A stretch of DNA of 64,000 nt from a bacterium (GCA_027484025.1 JAIXTI010000197.1:1-64000); one strand, 5' to 3'; positions 1 through 26,755 are shown, numbered from the stretch's first letter. Notes: generated by a model not told the origin, from the letters alone. Program-made: numbers and translations.

Positions 1-677
1 GGAAACTCGATATCGAACGCACCGGTCGAGTCAGGACCACTCCATGCTTGGACGCGCGTGATCGCCGACGCAGGTACACCGCATACGAGATACGTGCCGT
101 CCGCCGCTGCCTGACCCATTTGCGACGCCGCCTGCCGCGTCACGGACTCGGCCGAGATGAGCAACTCCAACCACTCCACACGCACCGTGCCCGTGGTGGG
201 TCGACGATCACCGTCGGCGCGCCGAAGTGTGCCGAAGAGATACCCCGTCGAGTCGAGAGGACTGGTATTGCATACCTGTTGACTCAACGTACCGCCGGAA
301 GGAACGACCAGCCGCACTTTGGTGGTCCCGCGTGACTTCACCGTTACGGGTTGCGTGATTTGTGCGATTGCCAGCGAATCCAGGCGCTGGTGCAGCGCAC
401 CGATGATCCAGCCGCCCGGCAACAGGCTATCGAAACGAAACCTTCCTCGCTGATCCGTCGTGGCCGACCTCGATGAGGAGCGATCGGACGCGTTGACGAG
501 TTGCACGACGCTCCCCACCAGCGGTTGTGCACGAGTGCTGTCCCAGACCGTGCCTTCGACACGTCCGCGCAGAACCGATTTTCCCTCTTGCGAATGGAGA
601 CGCCCGGCGGCGACAAGCATGTAGAGCAGCGCGACCACTGCGCGCATGATCACGCTGTGATTCGCGCGAATCATCAT
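1..677 (-). CDS. Secreted carboxypeptidase-regulatory-like protein, plug paralog 1 (partial)
   Basis: Fourth and last gene of a minus-strand row of four paralogs; it runs off the left edge, so its C-terminus is not seen. The ATG at 677-675 overlaps the stop of the upstream paralog (ATGA), which points to translational coupling. The N-terminus has a hydrophobic signal (RAVVALLYMLVAAGR). A carboxypeptidase-regulatory-like beta-sandwich follows, with 'GTVWDSTRAQPLVGSVVQL' and 'DQRGRFRFDSLLPGG', then 'LDSLAIAQ' and 'CGVPAST' blocks that recur in the neighbours. By analogy the missing end should carry a TonB plug-like domain. Role unknown; probably periplasmic or outer-membrane associated. Confidence 0.8.
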   Translation of the reverse strand, partial: MMIRANHSVIMRAVVALLYMLVAAGRLHSQEGKSVLRGRVEGTVWDSTRAQPLVGSVVQLVNASDRSSSRSATTDQRGRFRFDSLLPGGWIIGALHQRLDSLAIAQITQPVTVKSRGTTKVRLVVPSGGTLSQQVCNTSPLDSTGYLFGTLRRADGDRRPTTGTVRVEWLELLISAESVTRQAASQMGQAAADGTYLVCGVPASAITRVQAWSGPDSTGAFDIEF

Positions 678-2113
678 TTCCGCGGTCCGGTCCACATGAG
701 GACGACTCCACACCCGGTCAGCGACGTGAACTGCGCCGGTACCGTTTGCGGGCTGGCATACACTTCGACGGCGCGGATGTCATCTACCGATACCATCGAT
801 TCGACGTTGTTGTCGCCCTGCACGCGGATGCCGTCGAGCCATACATCTGGGGTGCACCACGAATTGAAGTTGAGTGCCCGCATCTGAACGCGCTCACCGT
901 ACGTCGCGGGCACCACGCGTACCCCTGGCACCATGCGCAGCACATCACCAATGCGCATGGGAGGGCGCTTGGCGAGATCGCTTGGACCGAAAAATCGGCC
1001 CGTGCCGGCCACGCGGCGACGCTGCTCGAACTCGGAAAGCTGACGCGCGAGCATGTCCGCGCGCGATGCATAGACGCGCACCGTATCGAGATTGGTCGTG
1101 CGGTTCATGGCCACCGTAATCGGTGCGTTGTCGCCGGCGACGATGTCGACAACCTGTCGCGTCGCGCGGTAGCCGAGCATTCGCACGTCGAGCATGTGCG
1201 TACCGGTAGGCATGGTCGAGAGCACGAACACGCCACTGTCGGAGCTCGTTGCCTGTACCCCGGTACCCCACACAGTGACCTGCGCGTTGCTCAGCGGACG
1301 GCCGCCAGCACCCTCTACGCGCCCGCGCACGACGGCGGGCCCGCGCAGCACTTCGGTAACCAGTGTATCGGCACTGCTGTCAGTAAGTACCAGACGGTCG
1401 CGCCGAATGCGTCCCGTATACAGGTCGCGCAACACGATCCCCAGCTCCGTCGTGAGCAATGCCGCGATACCGGTGGAGTCGGTGTTACTCCACGCCTGCA
1501 CCTGCATGTTGTCGTTGGCCGGTATGCCACAGAGCACGAACACACCGGCGGAATCCGTGCGCGCCTGTACGCGTTGCAGATCACGGCGCACCGCAACGCC
1601 ATCGAGCGTCAGCGACTGCCACTCGGCCTGCACGGTGCCGACACGCGTCACGCCCGGCTGCTCCGCATCGCGCAACAAGCCACGCAGATAACCGGCCCCC
1701 CGCGCAGCACTCTCTTCGCCGCACACCTGCGTCACGAGTGTACGTGCCGACGGCACCGCCAGCGTCAGCCGTGATTCTCCGCTCCGTACACTGATTCCGC
1801 GCGAAAGCTGCTGAATGCCGAGGGAATCGAGTCGTGGATGGTAGACGACCACTGCGTAGTCCGCGGGCTCGAGGCCGTCCAAGCGGAAGTTCCCCTTGGC
1901 GTCGGTGGTACCGGTTCGCAACTGCGACGGATCGTCAGCGCGCACCGCCTGCACGCTGGCGCCGGCGAGCGGTGCGGAGCGGGTGCTGTCCCAGACCGCG
2001 CCGGCGAGCCGAAGTCGAGCGGTTGACGATGTGCCAATTTGTGCACGGCCAACGACTGGAAGTGCGCACAACAGGGCGACGCCCCATGCGAGAGCACGAT
2101 GGTACGCCGTCAC
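674..2113 (-). CDS. Secreted carboxypeptidase-regulatory-like/TonB plug-only protein, paralog 2
   Basis: About 479 aa. I prefer the GTG at 2113, one base after the upstream TAA, with GGAGG four bases before it, because the signal peptide (HRALAWGVALLCALPVVGRAQ) then starts at once; an ATG at 2161 would add 16 unlikely residues and overlap the neighbour. Beta-sandwich blocks ('VWDSTRSAPLAGASV', 'VRGRVEGAGGRPLSNAQV') are followed by a plug-like domain: 'FFGPSDLAKRPPMRIGDVLR', 'MVPGVRVV', 'CTPDVWLDGIRVQG', 'AVEVYAS'. The protein ends at 'CGVVLMWTGPRK' with no beta-barrel, unlike a normal TonB receptor. Its stop overlaps paralog 1. Confidence 0.85.
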   Translation of the reverse strand: MTAYHRALAWGVALLCALPVVGRAQIGTSSTARLRLAGAVWDSTRSAPLAGASVQAVRADDPSQLRTGTTDAKGNFRLDGLEPADYAVVVYHPRLDSLGIQQLSRGISVRSGESRLTLAVPSARTLVTQVCGEESAARGAGYLRGLLRDAEQPGVTRVGTVQAEWQSLTLDGVAVRRDLQRVQARTDSAGVFVLCGIPANDNMQVQAWSNTDSTGIAALLTTELGIVLRDLYTGRIRRDRLVLTDSSADTLVTEVLRGPAVVRGRVEGAGGRPLSNAQVTVWGTGVQATSSDSGVFVLSTMPTGTHMLDVRMLGYRATRQVVDIVAGDNAPITVAMNRTTNLDTVRVYASRADMLARQLSEFEQRRRVAGTGRFFGPSDLAKRPPMRIGDVLRMVPGVRVVPATYGERVQMRALNFNSWCTPDVWLDGIRVQGDNNVESMVSVDDIRAVEVYASPQTVPAQFTSLTGCGVVLMWTGPRK

Positions 2114-2114
2114 G

Positions 2115-3578
2115 TTACCTCCGATCCGGCGGCGGGGTACGCCGTCCTGTCCAGACCACAATGGCGCCGCATGGGTTGGGCACGGCCAGCTCGATGGGTG
2201 TCGCGTTTCCGCGGTAAATCTCGAGTGCCAACAAATTGTCGGGCCTCACAAGCATGAAGAAGTCGTCCTCACCACTTTCCCGGCCATCGATCAGAAACGC
2301 CGGTGTACAGCGTCTCAGTCCGCTGCCAATCGTAAGCGATTCGCCCGCGGCAACGCCCCATTGCACGCGCACGAACGCCGCGCGCGAGAACAGTTGAGAC
2401 ATGGTCGCGGGATTCTCCCGGTTCAAGTCGTCCGGTGAGAGGAATACGCCTCCACCGCGCCGCTTACGCTTCAGGAATTCGGCTTCCTTGAAGGGTCCCT
2501 GATCACGCATCGCCCACGCCCGAATGCGCAGCGTATCCAACGTCGTCACACGCACGAGGTCGACCGCAATGGCCGACACATCGTCGGGGAGCACATCAAC
2601 GAGACGACGAATCGGTTCGTACCCGACGGCGCGCATTTCAACAGTATGCGTTCCAAAGGGCAGCCCCAACAGGGTGTACATGCCGGCCTGATCACTTCGC
2701 ACCTCGAGCCCCGTTCCCCACATCGACGCGATGACGCCGGGAAAGGGGACCCCGCTGCGCGCCATACGACCGTTCACCCGGCCGGTGCCGCGGCGATACG
2801 CGGTGATGACCGTGTCGACCAGCACGCCGGTGCTGTCCTCGAAGCGCACGAGCGCGGTATCGGCACGACGTTGCGATGAGGCGACGAAGATATCGAGTCG
2901 TCGAAGCCCTGATGCGTCCGCAGGTACGTCGAGCAGACCGCTCGAGTCGGCGCCGGCACTTGCCTGGATCTGAAAGCGCGTATCGGTGGGAACGCCGCAC
3001 GCCACGTACTCACCGCTTTCGCCGGAGGGTTGATCGAAGCCCACGGTACTCTGCGTAATGGAGACGCCGCGAATCTGGACTTCGGACCACTGCGCGCGAA
3101 CCACGCCAGCCACCGCGCTACGCTGACGATCTGCACGTCTGATGGTACCGAAGACGACGCCGAGCGAATCGCGTACGGTACTATCTCCACATAAACGTCG
3201 GATGAGGCTGACCGCAGACGGCACGGCCACGCGGATCTGCGTGAGCTTCCCGGCCGTCACCCGCAGGGGGCGCGCGAGCTGCGTGAGCCCCACGGAGTCG
3301 AGCCGTGCATGCCATGCGCCCACGATCCAATCGCCGGCAGTCACGGAGTCGAAACGGAATCGCCCGGCGCTGTCCGCAGCGGTCGTGCGCATCCCTGAAT
3401 CGGATCCGACCCGCAAGAGTTGGATGGTCGCCTCTGCGAGAGGGCGACGCGAGACGCTGTCGTACACCACCCCCTGAACCCGGCCGGGTGACGCGCTCTG
3501 CGCGGTCAACACCGGCGCCATCGCGGGCAGACAGGCGAGCGCCACGCAAAGGCTGACGCGTGCAGTCGCGGTGGTCAT
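2115..3578 (-). CDS. Secreted carboxypeptidase-regulatory-like/TonB plug-only protein, paralog 3
   Basis: About 487 aa. The ATG at 3578 overlaps the stop of paralog 4 (ATGA) and begins a signal peptide (ATARVSLCVALACLPAMAPV) ending near LTAQ. It has the same architecture as its neighbours, with 'VYDSVSRRPLAEATIQLL', 'GRFRFDSVTAGDWIVGAW' and 'ACGVPTDTRFQIQA'. The C-terminal plug-like domain is the most diverged of the set: 'FLSPDDLNRENPATMSQLFS', 'CTPAFLIDGRESGEDDFF', 'LALEIYRG' and 'CGAIVVWTGRR'. The WLDG motif of the other copies is LIDG here. No barrel follows. Function unknown; an interaction or envelope role is inferred only from the domains. Confidence 0.84.
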   Translation of the reverse strand: MTTATARVSLCVALACLPAMAPVLTAQSASPGRVQGVVYDSVSRRPLAEATIQLLRVGSDSGMRTTAADSAGRFRFDSVTAGDWIVGAWHARLDSVGLTQLARPLRVTAGKLTQIRVAVPSAVSLIRRLCGDSTVRDSLGVVFGTIRRADRQRSAVAGVVRAQWSEVQIRGVSITQSTVGFDQPSGESGEYVACGVPTDTRFQIQASAGADSSGLLDVPADASGLRRLDIFVASSQRRADTALVRFEDSTGVLVDTVITAYRRGTGRVNGRMARSGVPFPGVIASMWGTGLEVRSDQAGMYTLLGLPFGTHTVEMRAVGYEPIRRLVDVLPDDVSAIAVDLVRVTTLDTLRIRAWAMRDQGPFKEAEFLKRKRRGGGVFLSPDDLNRENPATMSQLFSRAAFVRVQWGVAAGESLTIGSGLRRCTPAFLIDGRESGEDDFFMLVRPDNLLALEIYRGNATPIELAVPNPCGAIVVWTGRRTPPPDRR

Positions 3579-5026
3579 CGACGCACCGCCTCGAGCGGTG
3601 TGCGCGGCCCCGTCCAGAGAACGACGACGCCGCACCCCGACACCGTCGCGTATTGGGGCGGCACACTCCCCGCGCTGGCATAAATCTCCACCGCGCGCAC
3701 CTGCTGCGGCTGTACGAATGAATCCATCGTGCCGTCGGTAGAAATGCGATTGCCGTCGAGCCAGATGTCCGGGGTGCAGAACTGGCTGAAGCCGATGCCT
3801 CGCATCAGAATCTGGTCACCAGATATGCCATTGGACGCGACACGCAGGCCGGGCACGCGCTCCATGAGCGTCGCCATGCGCAGCGGGTCCAACGCGATCA
3901 TGTCTTCGGGTCCGAAGTAGCGCCCCGCTCCCACTTTGCGGCGCTGCTCGAAGTCGATCATATCCTGACCCATGGCGATCGCGCGAAAGGCGCGGATCTC
4001 CACCTTGTCGAGTATGAGCGCTTTGCTCAGCGAGAACGTCGTGATTTGTGCTTCGTTTTCGAAAATGCTCACCGGGATACGCAACGGCTCGAAGCCGATG
4101 GCGCGGACATCGAGAAGCTGCGTACCGGTGGCTACGCCCTCCACGTCGAAGCGACCGGTCTGCGCGGTGCGTTCCGTCTGTCCACTTCCCACGACGGCGA
4201 CGACAGCATTGGCGATGGGGGTACCCTTGCTGTCGGTCACGACCCCGCGCACGCGCCCATCCCCGCGGCGCAGCACGACCGTAGCCAGGCTATCCCCCGC
4301 TGGAGCGGTGCTATCCAGTACCTGTCGCACGTATCGAGTGCGACCCAGTGCGAAATCGCGCTTGCCAATAGACGGCGGGGTCAACGTCACGTCGATGACA
4401 CCTGTAGAATCGACGCTGCTCCAGGCCTGCATGACCGCTTGTGTAGAGGCAGGAATACCGCAGAGCAAGTATTGACCGGACGGAGAAGTTTTTCCAACGA
4501 CGGAGACTTCTCTGCGAGAGAGGCGCCCGTCGCTCACGGCCAACTCCGTCCACTTGATGCGCACCGATCCCGTCGTGGCGGCTTTATCGCCATCGGCGCG
4601 TCGGAGCTGGCCGCTGACATACCCGGTCGAGTCGCGATGATTCACGCCGCACAATTGGCGACTCAAACTGCCAACGGACGGGACGCCGAGCGTGACGCGC
4701 GACGCGATGCCTGGCGTGACGGCGACTCGTAGCGCAACCTCATCGACCGCCAGCGTATCCAGGCGCGGATGCTGCGCGGCCAGGAGCCAGACACCAGCGA
4801 CGACACTATCGAAGGCGAAACGGCCCGCGCTGTCCGCTCTGGTCGAGCGGGGGGCGGAAAGCCCCTCCGCGTGCACCATCTGCACCACGCTACTCCCCAA
4901 GGGGGCGGCGCGCGTACTGTCCCAGACGACTCCCGACACCCGAGAACTCGTCGTCCCAATCCCCTGCGCGGTGCCGTCACGCGCGAGGCTGCACATCAGT
5001 AGGCACAATGTCAGTATTTTCCACAT
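3575..5026 (-). CDS. Secreted carboxypeptidase-regulatory-like/TonB plug-only protein, paralog 4
   Basis: About 483 aa and the first gene of the four-gene row. The ATG at 5026 gives a short signal peptide (MWKILTLCLLMCSLARDG); an ATG nine codons upstream is possible but adds charged residues. TACAAT lies 7 bases before the ATG and could be part of a promoter. The sandwich blocks are 'VVWDSTRAAPLGSSVVQM' and 'VRGVVTDSKGTPIANAVV'. The plug-like part includes 'YFGPEDMIALDPLRMATLM', 'VPGLRVASNGISGDQILM', 'CTPDIWLDGNRIS', 'AVEIYASAG' and 'CGVVVLWTGPRT'. It stops where a TonB-dependent barrel would begin. Confidence 0.85.
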   Translation of the reverse strand: MWKILTLCLLMCSLARDGTAQGIGTTSSRVSGVVWDSTRAAPLGSSVVQMVHAEGLSAPRSTRADSAGRFAFDSVVAGVWLLAAQHPRLDTLAVDEVALRVAVTPGIASRVTLGVPSVGSLSRQLCGVNHRDSTGYVSGQLRRADGDKAATTGSVRIKWTELAVSDGRLSRREVSVVGKTSPSGQYLLCGIPASTQAVMQAWSSVDSTGVIDVTLTPPSIGKRDFALGRTRYVRQVLDSTAPAGDSLATVVLRRGDGRVRGVVTDSKGTPIANAVVAVVGSGQTERTAQTGRFDVEGVATGTQLLDVRAIGFEPLRIPVSIFENEAQITTFSLSKALILDKVEIRAFRAIAMGQDMIDFEQRRKVGAGRYFGPEDMIALDPLRMATLMERVPGLRVASNGISGDQILMRGIGFSQFCTPDIWLDGNRISTDGTMDSFVQPQQVRAVEIYASAGSVPPQYATVSGCGVVVLWTGPRTPLEAVRR

Positions 5027-5126: not shown

Positions 5127-6617
5127 TTAGTACTTGTAGTGGCTTGCCTTGTACGGCCCTTCGAGCGGCACGCCGATGTACGACGCCTGATCCGCCGACA
5201 GCACCGTGAGCTTCACGCCGAGCTTCTCGAGGTGCAGGCGCGCCACCTTTTCGTCGAGATGCTTGGGGAGCGTGTACACCTTCTTCTCGTACTGCTCGGC
5301 GTTGGCGTGCAGCTCGAGCTGCGCCAGCACCTGGTTGCTGAAGCTCGCGCTCATCACGAAGCTCGGGTGGCCCGTGGCGCAGCCGAGGTTCATGAGACGG
5401 CCTTCGGCGAGAATCAGAATGGAGCGCCCGTTCGGCAGCACGAACTCGTCGTACTGCGGCTTGATGTTGATGCGCTTCATCCCTTCGACCTTCTTGAGAC
5501 CGGCCATGTCGATCTCGTTGTCGAAGTGGCCGATGTTGGACACGATCGCCTTGTCCTTCATGCGGCTCATGTGCTCAACCGTAATCACGTTCTTGTTGCC
5601 CGTCGCCGACACGAAGATGTCCGCCTGATCGACGATGTCTTCGAGCGTCGTCACCTGATAGCCTTCGAGCGCTGCCTGCAACGCGCAGATGGGATCGATT
5701 TCGGTGATCACGACACGCGCGCCCTGACCCTTGAGCGCCTGCGCGCATCCCTTGCCCACGTCGCCGTAGCCAAGCACCACCACGATCTTGCCCGCGAGCA
5801 TCACGTCCGTCGCGCGGTTCAAGCCGTCGACCACCGAGTGACGGCAGCCGTACAGGTTGTCGAACTTCGACTTGGTGACGGCATCGTTCACGTTGATGGC
5901 CGGGAAGGCCAACGTGCCGGCGCGCTCCATTTCGTACAGGCGATGCACACCCGTGGTCGTCTCTTCCGACACGCCGCGAATGCCCGCGAGCACCTTCGTC
6001 CAGCGGCCCGGGTTCTTCTTCTGCTCGGCGCGCAGCAGATCGAGAATGACGCCCCACTCTTCGGGCTCGTTGTCGCTGTCGAAGCCCGGGATCTCGCCGG
6101 ACAGTTCGTACTCGGTGCCCTTGTGCACGAGGAGCGTGGCGTCGCCACCGTCATCGAGCAGCAGGTTGGGGCCCGTGCCGTCGCTCCACATGAGCGCCTG
6201 CTCCGTGCACCACCAGTACTCTTCGAGCGTTTCGCCCTTCCACGCGAACACCGGCGTGCCGTTCGGCTTCTCCACCGTGCCCGTCGGGCCAACCGCGACC
6301 GCGGCCGCCGCATGGTCCTGCGTGGAGAAAATGTTGCACGACACCCAACGCACGTCGGCGCCGAGCGCGACGAGCGTTTCGATGAGCACCGCCGTCTGCA
6401 CCGTCATGTGCAACGAGCCCATGATCTTCGCGCCCTTGAGCGGGAACTTGCCCGCATGCTCCGCACGCAGCGCCATGAGGCCCGGCATTTCCTGCTCGGC
6501 CAGACGGATTTCCTTGCGACCCCACTCCGCGAGCGACAGATCGCGCACGGCAAAAGCGGGACGTTCGGCAGCCGTCAGGTCGACGACGCCGTGTTCGGTC
6601 ATGATTGAAGTTGCCAT
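5127..6617 (-). CDS. ahcY: Adenosylhomocysteinase (S-adenosyl-L-homocysteine hydrolase)
   Basis: About 496 aa, within the longer bacterial size class. It reversibly splits S-adenosylhomocysteine to adenosine and homocysteine with bound NAD, clearing the product of methyltransferases. The substrate-domain motif '[14 protein letters not shown]' lies near residues 67-80, '[19 protein letters not shown]' near 253-271, and the Rossmann loop 'GYGDVGKG' at 283-290. '[11 protein letters not shown]' and '[14 protein letters not shown]' follow, and the family-typical tail is 'KASHYKY'. I chose the ATG at 6617 ('[10 protein letters not shown]'); the open frame further upstream does not look like protein. 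It lies 35 bp downstream of a SahR-like regulator on the same strand, so the two are probably co-transcribed. TTGACA overlaps the regulator's stop and may add an internal promoter. Confidence 0.97.
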
Positions 6618-16528: not shown

Positions 16529-19465
16529 TCAGCGCGTTTCCGTTCGGAGCAGCACGAGTCGGCGATCACCGCGAACGTGCATGGCCACACTGTTGCCCGA
16601 CAACGGCAGCGACACCATCGCGCTGTCGTTGGGCGCGATCGTGGCCGACACGCGACGGCCGTTGATGCCAATCGTGACCGGCAATGGTGCCGCGGTGGGG
16701 TTGAGAACGAGCGTGGATACCGTGGTGCGACCGTTCGGCACGCGCCACCACACACGTCCCTCACCTTCGGTATCGGTCGCATCGAGGAGCCGATACGACC
16801 CGCCCGAGGTGAACTCGTACGGTCCGTATGGACGACGGCCGCGCGCGACATACTGTACCGCCGGCCGCGTGTTCCATCCGCCACTCTCACCACCCGCCAA
16901 CCAGAACCCTTCGGCGTCAATTTGCGTGGCGTTCGCGGCACGCATTGGCGCAGGCATCGTGGGGACCGTGTGCACCAGCAGTCCGTTGTTGACACCCGTA
17001 ACGATCCCATGCTCGGACCCGTAGTCACCCCACACAATGGGCGCCGCAATCACCGGCTGTGCATCGTGCTCGCCCTCGCCGGCCATATACGTCACGAGGT
17101 TGCGCAGCAGGCGGTCGGCCACGGGATCGCGCGATACACGTGGTACCATGTCGAACGCCGACAGCAGCGCACTCCCCTTGCCGATGAAGTGCTCGGTGAG
17201 CGCGTGGCCCACGAGACCGTGGTCGTAGTTGGCAAGCACCGCTACGCGCGAAAGCTCCTGCGTGCGCGTGAGCGCATAGCCGCGCGTTACCGGATAGACC
17301 GCCGGGAAACCCGGCGTCGACTCGCGCCACCCCGTGTAATCGGACCACAAGAAGAGATCGTCGCGCGTGAGTCCGGCGAACACCGCATGCGTGGGGCGCT
17401 CGGGATTGATGGCCATCCCCTGCGCCCACGGACGTCCACCGGGCATGATGTCGGCGTGATCGAGCGCCGTCACCGACGGCCGCACGCCACCGGGGAGCCA
17501 TTGCGTCGCAAACGTCCCCGGCTGCTGATCGAGGATGAGCGCGCGTCCGCCGCGCGTCACGAACACCTCCAGCAGCCCCACCTGATTGCTGAGCGTCGCG
17601 TCCCAGGCATTGCTGCCCACGACCACGGCATCCGCCGCGGGGTCGAGCCCTGCCATGCTGACGATGGGCACCGTGCGGATACCAACCGCCGCGAGTGCCG
17701 CACGCGTGCGCCCACTCGGGTCATAGAGCTTGACTGCACGCGAAGACGCAGCGAGCGGCACACCCGCAGCACGCGGGTGCACGCGAACAGACACCGTGTT
17801 CTCGCTCAGCGTGTCAGCGCCGCGCACCAGCACACCGCGCAGCGACCAGGTGCCGCTGGCGTTGGCGGGCAAGTTCATCGGGAGTGCCTGCTCCGTCGCG
17901 GCATAGTGCGCGACCGTGGGCCACTTCACGCGCACCACACGCTGCGTACGCCCGGCGCTGTCGCGCAACGTCGCCACGAGCGTCGCTCCCGTGATGGCCT
18001 TGCCATCCTCGGCGTCGTTCACCACGTGCGCCACGACCGGCCAACGATCACCGGCATAGCGCTGCGGCGTCCACGACTCCCACGACAACAGCACCGGACG
18101 GAACGAGCGCGACAGCTGCGACACCACGGGCTTGGGACCCATGTCGCGCATGGAGGTAATGCCGTGCCAGTTGGAGAAGAGAATCGTGAACGGCACGATC
18201 CCCGCGAGATTGCCATTCTTGCTGCGCAACCGACGCGTGATCTCGATCGCCTGTCCCGACAGCCACGCCTGATACGCCTGCGCGCGCGGTCCCTGCTCGG
18301 CGTCGGGCGCGTGGCCCGTCCAGTTGAGCTGCGAGTCAGGCTGCTTGGTATCCGACACCAGGTTGTAGCGGCCGTCGGCACCGGTGTAGTTGCCGATCAC
18401 TTCGCTGAGCGTGATCGGCTGCGCCTTGCTTCCACGCAAGCAGCTGCTGGCGTCGCGCAGCGTGTAGAAGCTGAGGAACGAGTTGTAGTACCAGCCCCAG
18501 TAGCGGTGCATGTCGCACAGGTCGCCCGTGCGTCCAAAGCCATAGCCGGCGTTGGCAATGATGAGGCGGGTGGGATCCCAGCGCGTCACGCTGTCGTGCA
18601 CGACGGCGAGAAAGCGCTCCATCGCTGCCGCACCGTCCGACATGTAGTGCACCTCGTGATCGGCGGTCTCATTGGTGAGCGCATAGATCACGACACTGGG
18701 ATGGTTCACCTGCTGCGCCAGCAACGTATCGCGGTACCACGCAATGCTGGCCGCCTGGTTGGCCGGCACGCGTGTGGCCGATCCGCCGCGCGGCGTGCCG
18801 TAGTTGCCTTGGAACACCAGCATCCCCACGTCGTCGGCCGCATCGAGCCATACGGCCGACGGACTGCCGAGTCGCACGATGTTCACTCCCTGCGCACGCA
18901 GAAAGCGGAGGTAGTCGCGCGCGAATCGTCCACTCTGCGCCAGCGAGTCGGGAATATTGCGTCCCGGCGGGTTGATCGCGTTCCCCTTGAGAAACACGGG
19001 TTGCCCATTCAGCAGAATACGACCGTTTGCCGTGCTGATCGTACGGAAGCCTACGCGCACCGTGTCGGCCTGCGTCCCGACCATGACAACGAGATCGTAG
19101 CGCACAGGCGACGCGGGTGACCATCGTTGTACGCGGGGCACCGACACACGGGCGGAGAGCACCGCGGCGTCGCCGCGCGCACTCAACGTGCCGAGGGTGC
19201 CACGCCACACCGTAGTCCCGAGCGTATCGCGTAGCACCGCCTGTACCGATTGACCAACCGCGGTGCCCGCTCGCAGCTGCACGTCCACGCGCATGGACGC
19301 ACTCTCGGTGAACACCTGCGTGCGAAAGGCGTCACGACGCTGCGCGTCGGCGCGCAGCAGCTCGGTGCGTGACTGCGCAAACAGCGGAGTACCCGTGAGT
19401 ACTCCGGCACAGGCGCCGAGCGCCGCCGCCGTCAGGACCCGCGAGGGCCGCCTGTGCGCCCTCAC
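16529..19465 (-). CDS. GH2-type glycoside hydrolase with extra C-terminal domains
   Basis: 978 aa from a GTG at 19465 that overlaps the previous stop (GTGA). Signal peptide (LTAAALGACAGVLTGTPLFA). A GH2-type TIM barrel starts near residue 150 ('ILLNGQPVFLKGNAINPPGR'), with a probable acid/base in 'VVIYALTNETADHE' (E266) and a possible nucleophile in 'ITLSEVIGNY' (E355). A region near 595-730 ('VVVGSNAWDATLSNQVGLLE') resembles a glutamine-amidotransferase-like fold, as seen in some large secreted hydrolases. The end is beta-rich. Substrate unknown; with uxuAB downstream a glucuronide or related plant glycan is likely. Confidence 0.82.
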   Translation of the reverse strand: MRAHRRPSRVLTAAALGACAGVLTGTPLFAQSRTELLRADAQRRDAFRTQVFTESASMRVDVQLRAGTAVGQSVQAVLRDTLGTTVWRGTLGTLSARGDAAVLSARVSVPRVQRWSPASPVRYDLVVMVGTQADTVRVGFRTISTANGRILLNGQPVFLKGNAINPPGRNIPDSLAQSGRFARDYLRFLRAQGVNIVRLGSPSAVWLDAADDVGMLVFQGNYGTPRGGSATRVPANQAASIAWYRDTLLAQQVNHPSVVIYALTNETADHEVHYMSDGAAAMERFLAVVHDSVTRWDPTRLIIANAGYGFGRTGDLCDMHRYWGWYYNSFLSFYTLRDASSCLRGSKAQPITLSEVIGNYTGADGRYNLVSDTKQPDSQLNWTGHAPDAEQGPRAQAYQAWLSGQAIEITRRLRSKNGNLAGIVPFTILFSNWHGITSMRDMGPKPVVSQLSRSFRPVLLSWESWTPQRYAGDRWPVVAHVVNDAEDGKAITGATLVATLRDSAGRTQRVVRVKWPTVAHYAATEQALPMNLPANASGTWSLRGVLVRGADTLSENTVSVRVHPRAAGVPLAASSRAVKLYDPSGRTRAALAAVGIRTVPIVSMAGLDPAADAVVVGSNAWDATLSNQVGLLEVFVTRGGRALILDQQPGTFATQWLPGGVRPSVTALDHADIMPGGRPWAQGMAINPERPTHAVFAGLTRDDLFLWSDYTGWRESTPGFPAVYPVTRGYALTRTQELSRVAVLANYDHGLVGHALTEHFIGKGSALLSAFDMVPRVSRDPVADRLLRNLVTYMAGEGEHDAQPVIAAPIVWGDYGSEHGIVTGVNNGLLVHTVPTMPAPMRAANATQIDAEGFWLAGGESGGWNTRPAVQYVARGRRPYGPYEFTSGGSYRLLDATDTEGEGRVWWRVPNGRTTVSTLVLNPTAAPLPVTIGINGRRVSATIAPNDSAMVSLPLSGNSVAMHVRGDRRLVLLRTETR

Positions 19466-22131
19466 TGACGCCGTACCCGAACGGCGCTCAGGATAGGCTT
19501 CCCTTTGCGCGACACGAAACGCACGTCGAGCCCGCCCCCATTCACGGCGCGCACCGGCACCAGCACGGGCACCGCAATACCCGTCCCTGCCTGCGTGACC
19601 AGATCGAGCATCGTCACCACCGGCGTCCCGTTCACCTGCACATCGAACACCCGCTCACCCGCCGGCGTCGCGTTCGGCTCGGCGAAGCGCAGTTCAAGCT
19701 CGTAGTCGCCATCGGGCACGTCGAAGCGATAGGCGCTGAGCCCTTCGCGGAAGGTGATGTACACCGGCGGTTGCGACGTGCCACGCACCGGAAGCTCCTT
19801 CGAGAACGGGACGGCCTCACCACCCACATAGCCGTAGCTCCCCTTCGTGTATGCCCGATCGGCGAGCCAGATCACGCCGTCCACATCGGCCATCTCGGCC
19901 TGGCTCCCCACATTCACCGCGATCTCCTTGAACGGCACGGAGAAATCGGCGAGCAGGGGTGCGCGATAGGTGAAGGTGATCACCAGACGATCCGACGCCG
20001 TCGCGCCCACCGCGCGGGCCTCGAGCACGTTCGCGCCATCGACGAACGGCACGTCCCACGTGATGCGCTTCACGTCGTCGGGCACGCGAACGCCAAGCGA
20101 GCGCCCGTTCACGAATAGCTCGACGCGCGCCGCGTTCGAGTACACATCGACCGGCTGACGAACCGCACGCATTCCGGCACCGAGCGGCGCCGTGCTGTCG
20201 CTGCCGCTGCGACGCGTCCACGTGCGACTCGCGATGTGCACCATGGGCTTGGTCGTCCAGTTGGCCTGGTACAGGAAGTACACATCCTTGTACTCGCGAT
20301 TCCACGTCTGCAGCCCCTTCTGGTTGCGGAAGGGAATGGAACCGCCAATCTCGCCTTTGCCAAAGTCGAACTGATTCCACACCGCGCTGCCGGCGAGCCA
20401 CGGACGTGCCGCCAACTGCCGCAGATACGACTCGTGATAGCGGCGCTGCCACGTCCCGCTGAAGTCGAACCGTTCGGGCGCCAGACTGTTCACGCGGTAA
20501 TCGTCTTCGGCGCCGTACTCACTGAGAATGAGCGACTGCGCCGGATGCGCTGCACGACGGCGGTCGAGCCCTTTCCCCAAGTCGGCGAACACGCCGCTGT
20601 ACCAACCGTCATAGCGGTTGACGCCCACCACCGGCGTCTGAATACCGAGGCCGGCCTTTTCGTAGTCGTCGCTGCCATGCAGCGCGACGGTGGTGACACG
20701 CGACGGATCTTCCGCGCGCGCCACACTGTCGAGCGTCGTTTCGAGCGCCTTTACCTGCCGCAGGTAGGTCGTATCGATGTGGCGGCTGATCCGCTCCCCC
20801 TCGCCCGACCAGAGCAGCACTTCGTTCATCAGACCCCACAACACCACCGACGGGTGATGACGATGCTGATGAATCATCTCGCGCATCTGCGTCACCGTCG
20901 CCGCGGTAAAGCGGGAATCGGCGTTGATGTAGTCGACCACGGGAATCTCTTCCCAAAGCAGCAGGCCAAGCTCGTCGGCCGCTGCCAATACCGCAGGGTC
21001 CTGCGGGTAGTGCGCCAGCCGCAGGAAGTTCGCGCCCATCGCCTTGATCATCTCGAGATCGCGACGATGCAAGTCATTCGACAACGCCGACCCGAACTTC
21101 TCGTGATCCTGATGACGGTTGGTGCCGCGCAGCGTGAGCTTGGCGCCGTTCAGGTGAAAGCCGGTGGAATCGAAGCGGAACCAACGGAACCCCACCGGAT
21201 CGGTGACACGATCGAGCACACGTGCCCCATCGCGCACCTCGGTGTGCACACGATACAGATACGGCGTATCCGGGCTCCACAAGCGCGGCTGAGCCACAAC
21301 GGGCAAGCGACCGCGTGTCGTGCTCGACGCACCGGCCGCCAACGTGAGCGGCGACTCCCGCCGCCCCACTTCCTTCCCAGTGGCATCGGTCAGCACATGC
21401 GCCACTGTCACCGTGCGCGGAGCGGCGCCGTCGTTGGCGACCGTGGCTTCCACTTCGACGACCGCCGAATCGCGTGAGACCTGCGGGGTGCGCACCACGG
21501 TCCCCCGATCGCCCAACGCGCCAGCACGGACATGCACCTGGTCGGTCGCAATGAGCCAGACATCGCGATAGATGCCGCCGTACAACACGAAATCGACAGC
21601 CAGCGGAGCGAGAAACGGATCGTGCGCGTTGTTCACCTGCACCGCAATCAGATTGCGGGCGCCGACGGTCATGAACCGCGTGACGTCGAAGGTGAATCCA
21701 GTGTAGCCGCCGCTGTGTCGTCCGGCCCATGCGCCGTTCACGTACACATCGGCCACCTGATTCACCCCTTCGAAGGAGAGGGAGAGGCGCTTGCCCGTAT
21801 AGCTGCTGTCGAGCGTGAGATAGCGACGGTACCACGCCACCCCGCGGCGGTAGCCCGGCACATCGTCGAACGGATCACGTGCATTCCACGTGTGCGGAAT
21901 CGTGACCTGTTCCCATCCGTCGTCCGCATCCTGCGCCCGCTCGAAGCTCCGGAACTTGCCGGGCTCGACGAGCGCCGTGAAGCGATCGCCATACGACTGC
22001 CCGCCGTACGCGAAACGCCAGCCATCGTTCAGGCTGCGCTCGACACGCCCTCCCCCCTGTGCCCGGGCATCGACCCCGTGCAGCATGGCCACCGCGGCCA
22101 TGCCCAGGCACCACTGCTTCATCCGCGACAT
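19462..22131 (-). CDS. GH2 beta-galactosidase/glucuronidase-like enzyme with malectin-like tail
   Basis: About 889 aa with a signal peptide (residues 1-25). The sugar-binding and sandwich domains of GH2 come first ('DGWEQVTIPHTWNARDPFDD', 'GGYTGFTFDVT'), followed by the TIM barrel. That barrel has the acid/base in 'VVLWGLMNEVLLW' (about E437) and the nucleophile in 'SLILSEYGAED' (about E538). A DUF4982-like segment follows, and the last 150 residues look like a malectin carbohydrate-binding domain ('SAYRFDVPDGDYELELRFAE'). The ATG at 22131 is preceded by GTG; either could start. It probably releases a terminal galactose or glucuronic acid. It follows susD by 7 bp in the operon. Confidence 0.9.
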   Translation of the reverse strand: MSRMKQWCLGMAAVAMLHGVDARAQGGGRVERSLNDGWRFAYGGQSYGDRFTALVEPGKFRSFERAQDADDGWEQVTIPHTWNARDPFDDVPGYRRGVAWYRRYLTLDSSYTGKRLSLSFEGVNQVADVYVNGAWAGRHSGGYTGFTFDVTRFMTVGARNLIAVQVNNAHDPFLAPLAVDFVLYGGIYRDVWLIATDQVHVRAGALGDRGTVVRTPQVSRDSAVVEVEATVANDGAAPRTVTVAHVLTDATGKEVGRRESPLTLAAGASSTTRGRLPVVAQPRLWSPDTPYLYRVHTEVRDGARVLDRVTDPVGFRWFRFDSTGFHLNGAKLTLRGTNRHQDHEKFGSALSNDLHRRDLEMIKAMGANFLRLAHYPQDPAVLAAADELGLLLWEEIPVVDYINADSRFTAATVTQMREMIHQHRHHPSVVLWGLMNEVLLWSGEGERISRHIDTTYLRQVKALETTLDSVARAEDPSRVTTVALHGSDDYEKAGLGIQTPVVGVNRYDGWYSGVFADLGKGLDRRRAAHPAQSLILSEYGAEDDYRVNSLAPERFDFSGTWQRRYHESYLRQLAARPWLAGSAVWNQFDFGKGEIGGSIPFRNQKGLQTWNREYKDVYFLYQANWTTKPMVHIASRTWTRRSGSDSTAPLGAGMRAVRQPVDVYSNAARVELFVNGRSLGVRVPDDVKRITWDVPFVDGANVLEARAVGATASDRLVITFTYRAPLLADFSVPFKEIAVNVGSQAEMADVDGVIWLADRAYTKGSYGYVGGEAVPFSKELPVRGTSQPPVYITFREGLSAYRFDVPDGDYELELRFAEPNATPAGERVFDVQVNGTPVVTMLDLVTQAGTGIAVPVLVPVRAVNGGGLDVRFVSRKGKPILSAVRVRRQ

Positions 22132-22138
22132 CACGTGC

Positions 22139-23800
22139 TCAGTAACCCGGGTTCTGGTTCATCTTGCGCCCGAGGTTCGCATCGATGACCGACTGCGGAA
22201 TGGGCAACAGGGAGTCACGCGGCTGCACCGCGGCGCGCGCGAGTGGGTTGAAACGTACCGTCCGGTCATACCAGGTGCCCGTGCGCATGAGCGTGTAACG
22301 CCGCTGCTCTTCCGTCACGAGTTCGCGCGAACGCTCATCGAGAATGAACTCGAGCGTCACCTGCGCCGGCGTGATCGTCGACGCACCGGCACGGGCGCGC
22401 ACGATGTTCAGATTCGCCGCCGCCTCGGTGAGCTTCGCCTGCCTGAACTGCGCTTCCGCCAACAGCAGGTACGTATCGGCCAATCGCAGGTACGGCTGAT
22501 CGACGAACGTCGCACCGCCCTGCGGGTCGATCGCGCTCGCCCAATCCCACTTGCGCGTGCTCGGCCACAGGAAATCGTTGAGGCGCTCCACCGGACCCAC
22601 CACCGTGAGCAGCGTGTCGCCAACGCGACGTCCCGCCGGCAGGGTGGCCGGGTTGTTGAACGTGTAGAACCGACGAACGGCAAACGCACCACCACGCTGG
22701 TCCTGCGGCTCGTACAGGTTGAGCCCGTAGCGCGTTATGGCCAGACGACCAATGCCACGGCCGCCATTGTCCGTCGAAATCTGCATACCGCGGTTCTGCT
22801 CGTAGCGGTTCACCCAATAGCGGCGCATGATGCTGCCACCACCACCGTTCACCAGCTCCGCATACTGCAGCACCCACAGCGCTTCGGTGTTGCCCTGCGC
22901 GCGGTTCACGTTGCCGTCCTGGAACTGATCCATGAACGCGACACCCGGCTCCGTGCGCTTCACACCATAGCGCGACGTGATCAGCCGGTACGTGCCACTC
23001 GCAATGACCGCCTGTGCCTTCTGCTCGGCGAGCGCCGGCTGGTTGAGCGCGAGATACATCTCGGCCAGGTAGTGCTGCGCCACACCCTTCGTGACCTTGC
23101 CGGCGTTCCCCGACGTGAGCGGCAGGTTCTCTTCGGCGAAGAGCAGATCGCTGACGATGAAGCGACGCACCGAATCGCGCGGCACCCGCTCCCAGTCATT
23201 GCGAATGCTCGTGCCCGACGACTCCTGCGTGTTGATCGGGACATCGCCATACAGGTACGACAGATGGCGATACGCCCAGGCGCGAATGAGTCGCGCTTCG
23301 GCCACCACACGGGCCTTATCCGACGTCGTCCACTTGACCGCCGGATTCTCCGCGCGCGCAATGATGGTGTTGGCGGCGTTGATGGTCTGGTACATCACGT
23401 TCCAGATGTTCGTGATGAACCCGTCGGTGGGCGCCATGCGCACGCCGAACTCCTGGAACGTACGCTCGTTGGGTGAGACGAAGTTGCCGAAGCCGTTGTC
23501 GGTGCCGATGGTCATGGGGATCATCAGCAACTCGTTATTCGACTCATCCTGCCCCCACCGCTCGCGGCGCACCTGCGCGTAGAGTGCGTTCAACCCGGCT
23601 TCGAAGCCTTCGAGATTCGAATAGAGGTTGTCGGCGACGATGATGTCCTTGGGTGTTTCGACGAGCAGCTTGTCGGTGTCACAGGCGCTGGCCGACAGCG
23701 CCATCACGACACTGCCGGAAACCAACAGCGTGCGGCGCAGGAACGAACGCGCGGCAGCGGGCATACGGGAGCCCCGGATGTTTGAAGTAGTGGTCGTCAT
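22139..23800 (-). CDS. susD: RagB/SusD-family nutrient-binding lipoprotein
   Basis: 553 aa. Lipoprotein signal with a lipobox at 'ALSASAC'. The helical TPR-like core of SusD proteins follows ('YSNLEGFEAGLNALYAQVRR', 'NIWNVMYQTINAANTIIARA', 'RLIRAWAYRHLSYLYGDVPI'). The conserved C-terminal RagB/SusD part has 'YLRLADTYLLLAEAQF', 'FILDERSRELVTEEQRRYTL' and the ending 'IPQSVIDANLGRKMNQNPGY'. It would cap the SusC barrel and bind the oligosaccharide on the cell surface. It lies 3 bp after susC. Confidence 0.96.
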   Translation of the reverse strand: MTTTTSNIRGSRMPAAARSFLRRTLLVSGSVVMALSASACDTDKLLVETPKDIIVADNLYSNLEGFEAGLNALYAQVRRERWGQDESNNELLMIPMTIGTDNGFGNFVSPNERTFQEFGVRMAPTDGFITNIWNVMYQTINAANTIIARAENPAVKWTTSDKARVVAEARLIRAWAYRHLSYLYGDVPINTQESSGTSIRNDWERVPRDSVRRFIVSDLLFAEENLPLTSGNAGKVTKGVAQHYLAEMYLALNQPALAEQKAQAVIASGTYRLITSRYGVKRTEPGVAFMDQFQDGNVNRAQGNTEALWVLQYAELVNGGGGSIMRRYWVNRYEQNRGMQISTDNGGRGIGRLAITRYGLNLYEPQDQRGGAFAVRRFYTFNNPATLPAGRRVGDTLLTVVGPVERLNDFLWPSTRKWDWASAIDPQGGATFVDQPYLRLADTYLLLAEAQFRQAKLTEAAANLNIVRARAGASTITPAQVTLEFILDERSRELVTEEQRRYTLMRTGTWYDRTVRFNPLARAAVQPRDSLLPIPQSVIDANLGRKMNQNPGY

Positions 23801-23803
23801 GGG

Positions 23804-26755
23804 TCAGTACCGGATGGAGAGGCCCGCGGTGTACGAGCGCTCGAGCGGCACTGCGCGCTGCGAACTGAGTTCCGGATCCATGCCGGTCCACTCGGTGCTC
23901 GTCCACAGATTTCGGCCGTTCACATAAATGCGCGCCGACTGCACGCCGAGGCGGGAGAACGATCCCTTCGGAAGTTCGTACGACACGGCCACGTCCTTGA
24001 GACGCACGAAGCTCGCGTCCTCGTAGAAGTCCACACCCAGCGGATTGCTCGTCTGGTTGTTGGCGGGATACGTGTTGATCGCGTTCTGCGGCGTCCAGTA
24101 CTGCTGCAGCAGCATGTTGCGGCTCACGTTGGAGTTCACCTGACCGGTGCTGCGCAACACGTTCTGGCGCGTCACCCCCTGCACGGTCTGCACGAACGCG
24201 CTCACCGTGATGCCCTTGAAGCGCACCGTGTTCGTCATGCCACCCGTGTACTTGGGCTGCAGGCTGCCGATGATCGTGCGGTCGGTCGGGTCGATCTTGC
24301 CGTCACCGTTGGTATCCAGAATGCGCACATCGCCGGGCCGGGCCGTCGGCTGGGGCGACGTGCGAATGCGCGCCGTGTCCGCCACCTGCCAGATACCGTC
24401 GAACTTGTAGGCGAAGTTCACGTCGATCGGCATGCCAATGAACCACTGGTTGGCAAGATCGCTCTTGCCGTCACCGTACAGATCGACGATCTGATTGCGG
24501 TTCACCGAGACATTGAGGTCCGTTGACCAGCGGAAGCCACCACGATCGAGATTGATGGTGGAGATCTGCGATTCCCAGCCCCAGTTGGACGTGCGGCCGA
24601 TGTTCTGCGTGATGCGCGTGATGCCCTGAACCGACGAGATGGAACGCGAGAGCAGCAGGTCGCGCGTGTCGGCTTCGTACCGTTCGAAGGTCCACGTGAC
24701 GCGTCCCTGATGCATCGACAGGTCGAAGCCGATGTTGCTCGAGGTCGTCGTTTCCCACTTGAGATCCGGATTGCCAAGCGTCGACGGGATATAACCCGGC
24801 GCCGACGCGTCACCGTTCAGATACGAGCGATCGTTGAGCTGCGACAGCGTCTGGTACGGGTTGATCGCCTGGTTACCGTTGCGGCCGCGCGTGTAGCGCA
24901 GCTTGAAGGCATCCACCTGATCCTTGAACGGGAAGAAGCTTTCGTTCGAGACGTTCCACGCCAGCGCCAGCGACGGGAAGACGCCGTACTTGTTGTTCGC
25001 CCCGAAGCCCGAGTAGCCGTCACGACGGGTGGTGAAGGTCGCGAGGTAGCGTTCGTCGTAGCCGTAGTTGAGGCGCGCCATCTGCGAAACGATCTTCGAT
25101 TCGACGACCGAGGCGTTCGACACGTTGAGCGTCGCCAGCGCCGACCGGTAGCCCAGCACGTCGTTGGGGAAGCCCTGCGCATCACGGCTGCGCGTTTCGA
25201 TGCTGCTCGACTGCACGCTGTACAGTCCCGTCGCGTCGATCGCGTGGCGCCCGAACGTCTTGGCGTAGCGCGCCAGGTTTTCCACCGTCCAGTCGTTGCG
25301 AATGGAATTGCTCGTGGTCGCCGTACCGGCGCTGCGCTGACCCGTGCCGGTGTTGCGGCCGTAGTATCGCCCGTTGTTGCTGTTAGTGAGATCGGCGCCG
25401 GCGTTCAGACGGAACGACAGTCCCGGGATCTTCGGCACCGTCACCTGCGCGTAGTTCGACGTGAACATGCGGTTGTTCACCGCGTCGTCGGACACGAACA
25501 GATTCTCCAGCGGGTTGGCGCCGTTGATCGGCTGCTCGGGCCACGGGTTGATCAGAATGCTGCCGTCGGCGTTGAACGGCTTGATGAGCGGATTCAGATA
25601 GTACGAATCGGTGAAGCTGATGGGCAGACCGCTGCGATCGGTGCGCGCGAACTGCGTCGAGGTGCCGGCCGTGAGCCACGAGCGGATCTTCTGATCGATG
25701 TTGGCACGGAACGTGGTGCGCACATAGCGATCGTTCTTCGCCACACCGGAGACGTCGAGCAGCGAGCCGCCCAGCAGATACTTCGTGTCGTCGCTGCCAC
25801 CGCTTACCGACAGATCATGCTGGATCTGCTGACCGGTACGCGTGCCAAGCTTCTGCCACGGCGTATCGATGTTCTGCGCGATGTTGTCGTTCTCCGTCTG
25901 CGTGAACAGCTCGGCGCAGGTCTGATCGGGGCGAACGCGCAGGCGCTCACACTTGAACGTCTTGAACTCTTCGGCGTTCATCACACGCGGGAGCTCCGCC
26001 AGCTCCTGGGATCCCACACTGCCGTTGTACTGCACGCGCGCCTTGCCCGTGGTCCCCTTCTTGGTGGTGACGAGCACCACGCCGTTGGCGCCGCGTGCAC
26101 CGTAAATGGCCGTCGCCGAGGCGTCCTTGAGCACGTCGATCGAGGCAACGTCGCCCGGATTGATTTCCGAGAGCGGCCCGTTGTAGGGAATCCCATCGAC
26201 GACCACCAGCGGTGAGCTGTTGGCGGAGATGGAGCGCTGCCCGCGCACCGTGATGTTGAGCGTGGGCTCAGCGCCGGCCCCCGTGTTCACGACCGCGACA
26301 CCGGGCAACGATCCCTGCAGCGCCTGCGCGACGGTCACGTTGGGCCGGTCCTCGAGGCGATCGGTGGGCACCGAGACCACGGATCCGGTGATGTCGGAAC
26401 GCTTCTGTGTGCCGTAGCCGACCGTGACGACGTTGCTCAGCGTGAGCGCGGTGCGTTCGAGCGTGACGTCGACGGTGGTGCGGCCGGCCACCGGTTCGCG
26501 ACGCTCGCGGTAGCCGATGCGGCTGATGACGAGCGTGTCATTGGCGCCGCGCGTGGTGAACGAGTACCGGCCGTCCTCGTTGGTCACCGTACCGATACGC
26601 GTGCCGGAGATGACGATGGTGGCGCCGGCAATGACTTCGCCGTTGTCACGAGCCGTGATACGACCGCGCAGCAGTGGCCCGGACTGCGCCAGTGCCGGCA
26701 CAGCGGACGCCACCAGCAACGCGGCGAGTGCCACGATGGAAGAAGTGCGATTCAT
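23804..26755 (-). CDS. susC: SusC/RagA-family TonB-linked outer-membrane transporter
   Basis: 983 aa. Signal peptide ending ALAQ, then a carboxypeptidase-like domain (residues 28-100), the SusC signature 'TVGYGTQKRSDITGSVVSVP' (111-130), the plug ('GIPYNGPLSEINPGDVASI', 'DVLKDASATAIYGARGANGV') and a long beta-barrel ending in the aromatic 'LSIRY'. This imports an oligosaccharide using TonB energy, with the SusD cap encoded next. The regulator gene lies 98 bp upstream on the same strand; no clear promoter is seen in that gap. The SusCD pair outside Bacteroidetes fits Gemmatimonadota. Confidence 0.97.
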   Translation of the reverse strand: MNRTSSIVALAALLVASAVPALAQSGPLLRGRITARDNGEVIAGATIVISGTRIGTVTNEDGRYSFTTRGANDTLVISRIGYRERREPVAGRTTVDVTLERTALTLSNVVTVGYGTQKRSDITGSVVSVPTDRLEDRPNVTVAQALQGSLPGVAVVNTGAGAEPTLNITVRGQRSISANSSPLVVVDGIPYNGPLSEINPGDVASIDVLKDASATAIYGARGANGVVLVTTKKGTTGKARVQYNGSVGSQELAELPRVMNAEEFKTFKCERLRVRPDQTCAELFTQTENDNIAQNIDTPWQKLGTRTGQQIQHDLSVSGGSDDTKYLLGGSLLDVSGVAKNDRYVRTTFRANIDQKIRSWLTAGTSTQFARTDRSGLPISFTDSYYLNPLIKPFNADGSILINPWPEQPINGANPLENLFVSDDAVNNRMFTSNYAQVTVPKIPGLSFRLNAGADLTNSNNGRYYGRNTGTGQRSAGTATTSNSIRNDWTVENLARYAKTFGRHAIDATGLYSVQSSSIETRSRDAQGFPNDVLGYRSALATLNVSNASVVESKIVSQMARLNYGYDERYLATFTTRRDGYSGFGANNKYGVFPSLALAWNVSNESFFPFKDQVDAFKLRYTRGRNGNQAINPYQTLSQLNDRSYLNGDASAPGYIPSTLGNPDLKWETTTSSNIGFDLSMHQGRVTWTFERYEADTRDLLLSRSISSVQGITRITQNIGRTSNWGWESQISTINLDRGGFRWSTDLNVSVNRNQIVDLYGDGKSDLANQWFIGMPIDVNFAYKFDGIWQVADTARIRTSPQPTARPGDVRILDTNGDGKIDPTDRTIIGSLQPKYTGGMTNTVRFKGITVSAFVQTVQGVTRQNVLRSTGQVNSNVSRNMLLQQYWTPQNAINTYPANNQTSNPLGVDFYEDASFVRLKDVAVSYELPKGSFSRLGVQSARIYVNGRNLWTSTEWTGMDPELSSQRAVPLERSYTAGLSIRY

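Follow-up and report, generated by a model that had tools for sequence, protein, structure and literature searches.

A four-gene array at the start of a Gemmatimonadota contig

The DNA analyzed here (hereafter, the window) covers the initial 64 kb of one contig (C179; GCA_027484025.1, JAIXTI010000197.1:1-64000) of a bacterial genome of 4.74 Mb in 291 contigs (G000), and its near relatives have names such as Gemmatimonas and Gemmatimonadaceae. Its first 5026 positions carry, on the minus strand and downstream of the S-adenosylhomocysteinase gene (ahcY; end at 5127), four head-to-tail paralogs that encode the plug of TonB-dependent receptors without the barrel (Table 1). All four proteins have a signal-peptide-like N-terminus, and the general layout is a carboxypeptidase-regulatory-like (CPD) domain, a linker sandwich, a second CPD domain and the plug, with the protein ending at the plug/barrel junction. 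The genes are joined by an ATGA overlap (3578-3575), a 1-bp gap (2114) and another ATGA overlap (677-674). An initial annotation of this locus had described four tandem paralogs with a signal peptide, CPD repeats and a TonB plug-like domain, linked in this manner; the junctions lie as it claimed, and the domains were recovered by Pfam, a family profile and a structure model. Neither tandem DNA repeats nor sigma-70-type promoters were found at the array locus.

Three C-termini are visible in the window, i.e., GCGVVLMWTGPRK, PCGAIVVWTGRRTPPPDRR and GCGVVVLWTGPRTPLEAVRR, and gene 1 is cut by the start of the contig. At the end of another contig of the same genome (C138) lies the C-terminal half (257 residues) of a family member. 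We assign this half to gene 1, and consider the two contigs adjoining, because a contig of a related metagenome-assembled genome (MAG; L034) has gene 3, gene 2, the N-terminal part of gene 1 and its C-terminal part in this order, and because a further genome (G054) has the same neighbors on both sides, i.e., ahcY, two family genes, then a convergent gene for a 1,262-residue CPD-bearing protein resembling Oar and TonB receptors. All four array proteins therefore end alike, as the initial annotation had proposed from three of them. Over the C-terminal 220 residues, genes 3, 4 and 1 share 31-45% identity with gene 2. Array copy number differs at the syntenic locus, and since it holds two genes in G054 and four in the window, the array would represent a local tandem expansion.

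The source genome has a CPD-bearing Oar/TonB-receptor-like gene of its own on C138 (L024 7283-11455; about 1,300 residues), convergent with the array and in the same position as the G054 relative. Two MAG copies of the array are interrupted, with frame breaks in gene 4 (L033 9100-9830) and a deletion that fuses the gene 1 halves out of frame (L034 2640-2760); either could be an assembly error or decay.

Table 1 Features of the plug-protein array (window coordinates unless a contig is named).
Feature	Position	Strand	Remarks
Gene 4, first of the operon	3575..5026	-	signal peptide, CPD, sandwich, CPD, plug; 483 aa, ATG at 5026
Gene 4, plug to C-terminus	3578..4021	-	from the family alignment
Gene 3, most divergent paralog	2115..3578	-	ATGA overlap with gene 4; family profile 232 bits
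Gene 3, plug to C-terminus	2118..2549	-	from the family alignment
Gene 2	674..2113	-	GTG start, 1 bp past the gene 3 stop; Pfam Plug above cut-off
Gene 2, second CPD domain	1094..1336	-	same fold as NTE of SusC BT3090 (PDB 9hfj)
Gene 2, Ton-box-like stretch (LDTVRVYA) and complete plug, to stop codon	677..1099	-	plug-only model, structure matches
Gene 2, first conserved plug Cys (Cys436)	854..856	-	family column 160, Cys 97%
Gene 2, C-terminal stretch CGVVLMWTGPRK	677..712	-	second conserved Cys (Cys484) and Trp490; columns 209 (Cys 99%) and 215 (Trp 98%)
Gene 1, N-terminal part only	1..677	-	contig C179 starts here
Gene 1, C-terminal part	G000:C138 = L024 11482-12255	-	end = GCGVILLWSGSRDIPGAVKK

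Domain architecture and plug fold

CarboxypepD_reg (PF13620) was detected above its curated cut-off in the array, with two copies in genes 2-4 and one in the cut gene 1, and in 18/18 aligned relatives. The Pfam Plug domain (PF07715, cut-off 23.9 bits) scored 32.4 bits in gene 2, 22.9 in the C138 half of gene 1 and 16.3 in gene 3, with no match in gene 4; it was matched at E 0.01 or better by 15/18 of the relatives. In the genes other than gene 2, the domain is assigned to the plug by the profile of the family and by the modeled structure.

The mature gene 2 protein was modeled by AlphaFold2 from the 18 aligned relatives (predicted local distance difference test, pLDDT, 86.9). Its matches were mostly sandwiches of transthyretin/CPD and pilin type that masked the plug; a second model was therefore made of the plug by itself (pLDDT 83.8, predicted template modeling score 0.77). 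Against the PDB, TonB-dependent transporters made up all 50 matches listed by Foldseek (best E 7e-6) and all 50 listed by VIA-align. The top VIA match (Z 10.0, root mean square deviation, rmsd, 6.4) is itself a computational model; among experimental structures, FyuA (Z 8.9, 108 residues, 3.4 A) and BT1763 (Z 8.8, 107 residues, 3.7 A) scored best, and most of the remainder had Z 4.6-8. These alignments reach residues 137-141 of the 141 in the model, opposite residues 135 of BtuB, 157 of FhuA and 148 of FepA. The family profile likewise matched receptor plugs in the PDB, with SusC homologs aligned up to profile position 140/146. The predicted plug fold is as the initial annotation expected.

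The second CPD domain of gene 2 matched the N-terminal extension (NTE) of the SusC protein BT3090 (PDB 9hfj) with Z 12.8 and rmsd 1.7 A over 78 residues. Given the matches of both domains, the unit is equivalent to a SusC-like receptor that lacks the barrel but has NTE, Ton-box position and plug.

A phylum-wide family with a defined end

A profile built from ten members of the source genome scored its members above 230 bits (partly by construction) and its receptors at no more than 84 bits. At E 1e-25 or better, it matched 235 of 298 sampled Gemmatimonadota genomes, and genomes examined closely had 1 to 17 members. From 80 regions of 15 genomes and other loci, with genes called by codon usage, we collected 131 members, some of them near-identical proteins of closely related genomes. 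Among the 131, 118 end fewer than 40 residues after the plug, and the other 13 continue for 130-162 residues. Receptors continue for at least 690 residues past the plug, and no plug-bearing protein fell between about 165 and 690. The same end was also seen in single-contig genomes.

Nine of the 13 long tails are of TonB_C type; of the eight tested in Pfam, seven were above the cut-off and one just under (23.8 vs 24.6 bits). Two such proteins are encoded in the source genome (L029 12621-13856, G000:C64; L030 8517-9737, G000:C89), each a single chain in which CPD and plug are followed by a C-terminal domain of TonB type; Pfam found no TonB_C domain in the array genes of the window. One tail has no assignment, and three, all from G019 (L080, L083 and L084), are barrel-like, with 156-162 residues, alternating strands and a terminal Tyr as in small outer-membrane barrels and no Pfam match. 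Length also varies at the N-terminus. Short members have one CPD only, and relatives of about 900 residues (L078, G000:C101:79900-82300, minus; L047 456-3146) are extended at the N-terminus, with an extra CPD and a domain of 250 residues preceding CPD-CPD-plug. A 381-residue protein on G000:C150 apparently has the same extra domain.

Members also differ from receptors within the plug. In a comparison of the 131 members with 23 receptor plugs of the same loci, members have Cys at columns 160 (97%; receptors mostly Ser, Asn or Gln) and 209 (99%; Asn or Ala), Pro at column 199 (100%; Ala), Trp at column 215 (98%; Thr or Phe) and Tyr at column 192 (94%; Leu or Ile). If slight shifts in the alignment are allowed for, 129 members have both Cys and one has neither, and the single unpaired case lacks its last stretch. 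The two Cys probably form a disulfide between the final strand of the plug and the strand that precedes the [D/N]G turn. In a FastTree phylogeny of 133 plug columns, from which four signature columns had been removed, members and receptor plugs fell on opposite sides of one branch with support 100. The separation is supported rather than proven, since the tree is a FastTree on 133 columns and its receptors are those alignable by the profile.

The ratio of nonsynonymous to synonymous substitution (dN/dS) relative to orthologs is 0.055 for gene 4 (whose ortholog in L032 is 98.6% identical), 0.096 for gene 3 (C-terminal half), 0.086 for gene 2 and 0.18 for gene 1 (C-terminal part), indicating purifying selection. 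The contig break within gene 1 and the frame breaks in the MAG copies (L033 and L034) would suggest receptors that are truncated or decaying, or an artefact of assembly. We reject this explanation, to which we give almost no credence: the end is shared and without intermediates, dN/dS is well below 1, and the members form their own group with their own signature. The barrel-bearing homologs thus do not make these proteins simple truncations, and the free plug family inferred in the initial annotation holds: NTE-plug proteins that stand alone, end at the plug/barrel junction and share ancestry with the periplasmic half of SusC-like transporters form a family that occurs across the phylum. The receptor plug appears to have turned into an independent protein.

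The CPD domains, transthyretin-like sandwiches, might instead be the working part of surface or secreted adhesin-like proteins, with the plug serving to cap the end or to sort or anchor the protein. They do resemble pilin and S-layer sandwiches, and an NCBIfam S-layer model matches them; but the invariant residues of the family sit in the plug, short members manage with one CPD, and nearly all members lack a lipobox. We consider an adhesin-like role improbable.

Outside the phylum, the search covered plasmids and returned only Gemmatirosa replicons and one ordinary Bacteroidota receptor. The member on a Gemmatirosa kalamazoonensis replicon means that a named, sequenced host exists. No NCBIfam family covers plug-only proteins, and no paper on them was found in a literature search that left most subscription papers outside its reach. 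Since generic labels of the kind 'TonB-dependent receptor plug domain-containing protein' are in use, individual members have surely been noticed before; the family and its signature appear undescribed so far.

Possible roles and comparison with known systems

A signal peptide was recognized in 107/131 members, which, with the missing lipobox, suggests that members are exported by Sec to the periplasm and not lipidated. Most occur as single genes (n = 90); the others form 14 pairs, three triplets and one run of four, a tally in which the window's own run is undercounted because gene 1 has no plug inside the window. In three of 23 adjacent pairs (L045, L093 and L145), the members are on opposite strands. 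Clustering of 754 neighbor proteins revealed no constant partner gene, the largest clusters being receptors and SusD. A SusD-like gene is found within two genes of 18/115 members, and none adjoins the array. The TonB_C-fused member on C89 and its G054 relative are each followed immediately, on the same strand, by a receptor and a SusD gene, and one fused member of G092 comes right after such a pair. Elsewhere in the window (16529-26755, minus), a SusC-like receptor (23804-26755) and a SusD-like gene (22139-23764) precede genes for two large proteins that look exported (16529-22122), and the whole may be a locus for polysaccharide use.

Our leading reading, held tentatively and at less than even probability, is that members are soluble periplasmic clients of the Ton system, acting as adaptors or competitors for TonB. 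A disulfide between the paired Cys would pin two strands and keep the plug folded without its barrel. The isolated FepA plug behaves as unfolded (Usher et al. 2001, cited in PMC11658791), so a stand-alone plug would need such extra stabilization. The NTE-plug surfaces and the diverged Ton box would contact TonB C-terminal domains or the NTE and plug surfaces of receptors, and members might thereby adjust which of the host's many receptors gain access to TonB. The TonB_C-fused members would be the clearest bridge to the Ton system. The link to this system is drawn from the nine TonB_C-type tails and from a Ton-box-like motif: the E. coli-like box [DE]T[VILM]x[VIT]x[AGS] occurs in 44/131 members, with 0.3 expected on shuffling the stretch, although this counts related proteins and not independent events.

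That dependence is one of several points that weigh against a Ton-system client. Receptors of the same loci have the Ton box L-[DE]-x-V-V-V-T-G, close to the DEVVVTG of BT1763 (PMC7782687). Members retain its hydrophobic V-x-V and partly the D/V/V positions, but T falls from 91% in receptors to 16% and G from 91% to 28%, and two thirds of the members lack even the looser box. Binding of TonB at that site may therefore have been lost, and binding by members is best called possible. In addition, a receptor lies within two genes of 23/115 members vs 8/45 background genes of the window, with no clear enrichment; the periplasmic location depends on a crude signal-peptide rule; and the disulfide is deduced from the joint presence or absence of the two Cys.

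Nearly as probable is a repurposed NTE-plug, no longer touched by the Ton system, that serves as a periplasmic binder or scaffold for a small ligand, a glycan or an envelope protein. The eroded Ton box, the new conserved Cys pair, Pro and Trp, the tails other than TonB_C and the lack of a fixed receptor neighbor all fit such a protein. It explains less well why nine members are fused to a TonB-type C-terminal domain, and why the full SusC order of NTE, box and plug was retained rather than the plug alone.

A bolder reading, which we regard as unlikely, would make the plug a free-standing, disulfide-locked module for signaling or force transmission. Plug proteins, plug-TonB_C and plug-small-barrel hybrids would then form a network in the periplasm that relays or competes for TonB force irrespective of transport, as a third Ton component beside TonB and the receptors.

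The initial annotation had also suggested that free plugs could form an envelope complex of their own, which may be the case, or gate or inhibit real receptors. To do the latter, they would enter empty or plug-expelled SusC-like barrels and close them, and both the receptor-like fold and the cryo-electron microscopy finding that a whole SusC plug can exit its barrel (PMC7782687) are compatible with this. However, no complete plug-less barrel was found in the source genome, where the short PF00593 frames checked (C246, C235 and C202) and C61 sit at contig ends. Because of this and the eroded Ton box, plugging in trans appears unlikely; moreover, the residues of the last strand and the LDG strand are unlike those of receptors, and the putative disulfide would stiffen the domain and oppose its remodeling in a barrel. 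We rank it as the least probable of the functional readings.

The plug is a textbook part of a channel and is thought to need its barrel. Natural barrel-less plugs would show how a plug becomes stable alone, and the family makes two ideas testable, i.e., that a plug can leave its barrel folded and that TonB has clients besides barrels.

Compared with SusC/RagA-type transporters (BT1763 and BT3090), members have the NTE (CPD), Ton-box position and plug in the same order and with the same folds. They lack the 22-stranded barrel, ending 0-40 residues past the plug in 118/131 cases; DEVVVTG is eroded; the Cys pair, Pro and terminal Trp have been added; and long forms have two CPD-like domains. Relative to the PF07715 Plug domain, the fold is complete to the last strand and several members exceed the Pfam cut-off, whereas genes 3 and 4 are below it and the domain is C-terminal instead of preceding a barrel. 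The TonB energy transducer shares its C-terminal domain (PF03544) with the nine fused relatives, including the two of the source genome, but in the fusions a signal peptide and CPD-plug take the place of TonB's membrane anchor and proline-rich linker, and the window genes have no TonB_C domain. Like the isolated FepA plug, members are plugs without a barrel; that plug is a laboratory construct that behaves as unfolded, whereas these are natural proteins with a probable stabilizing disulfide.

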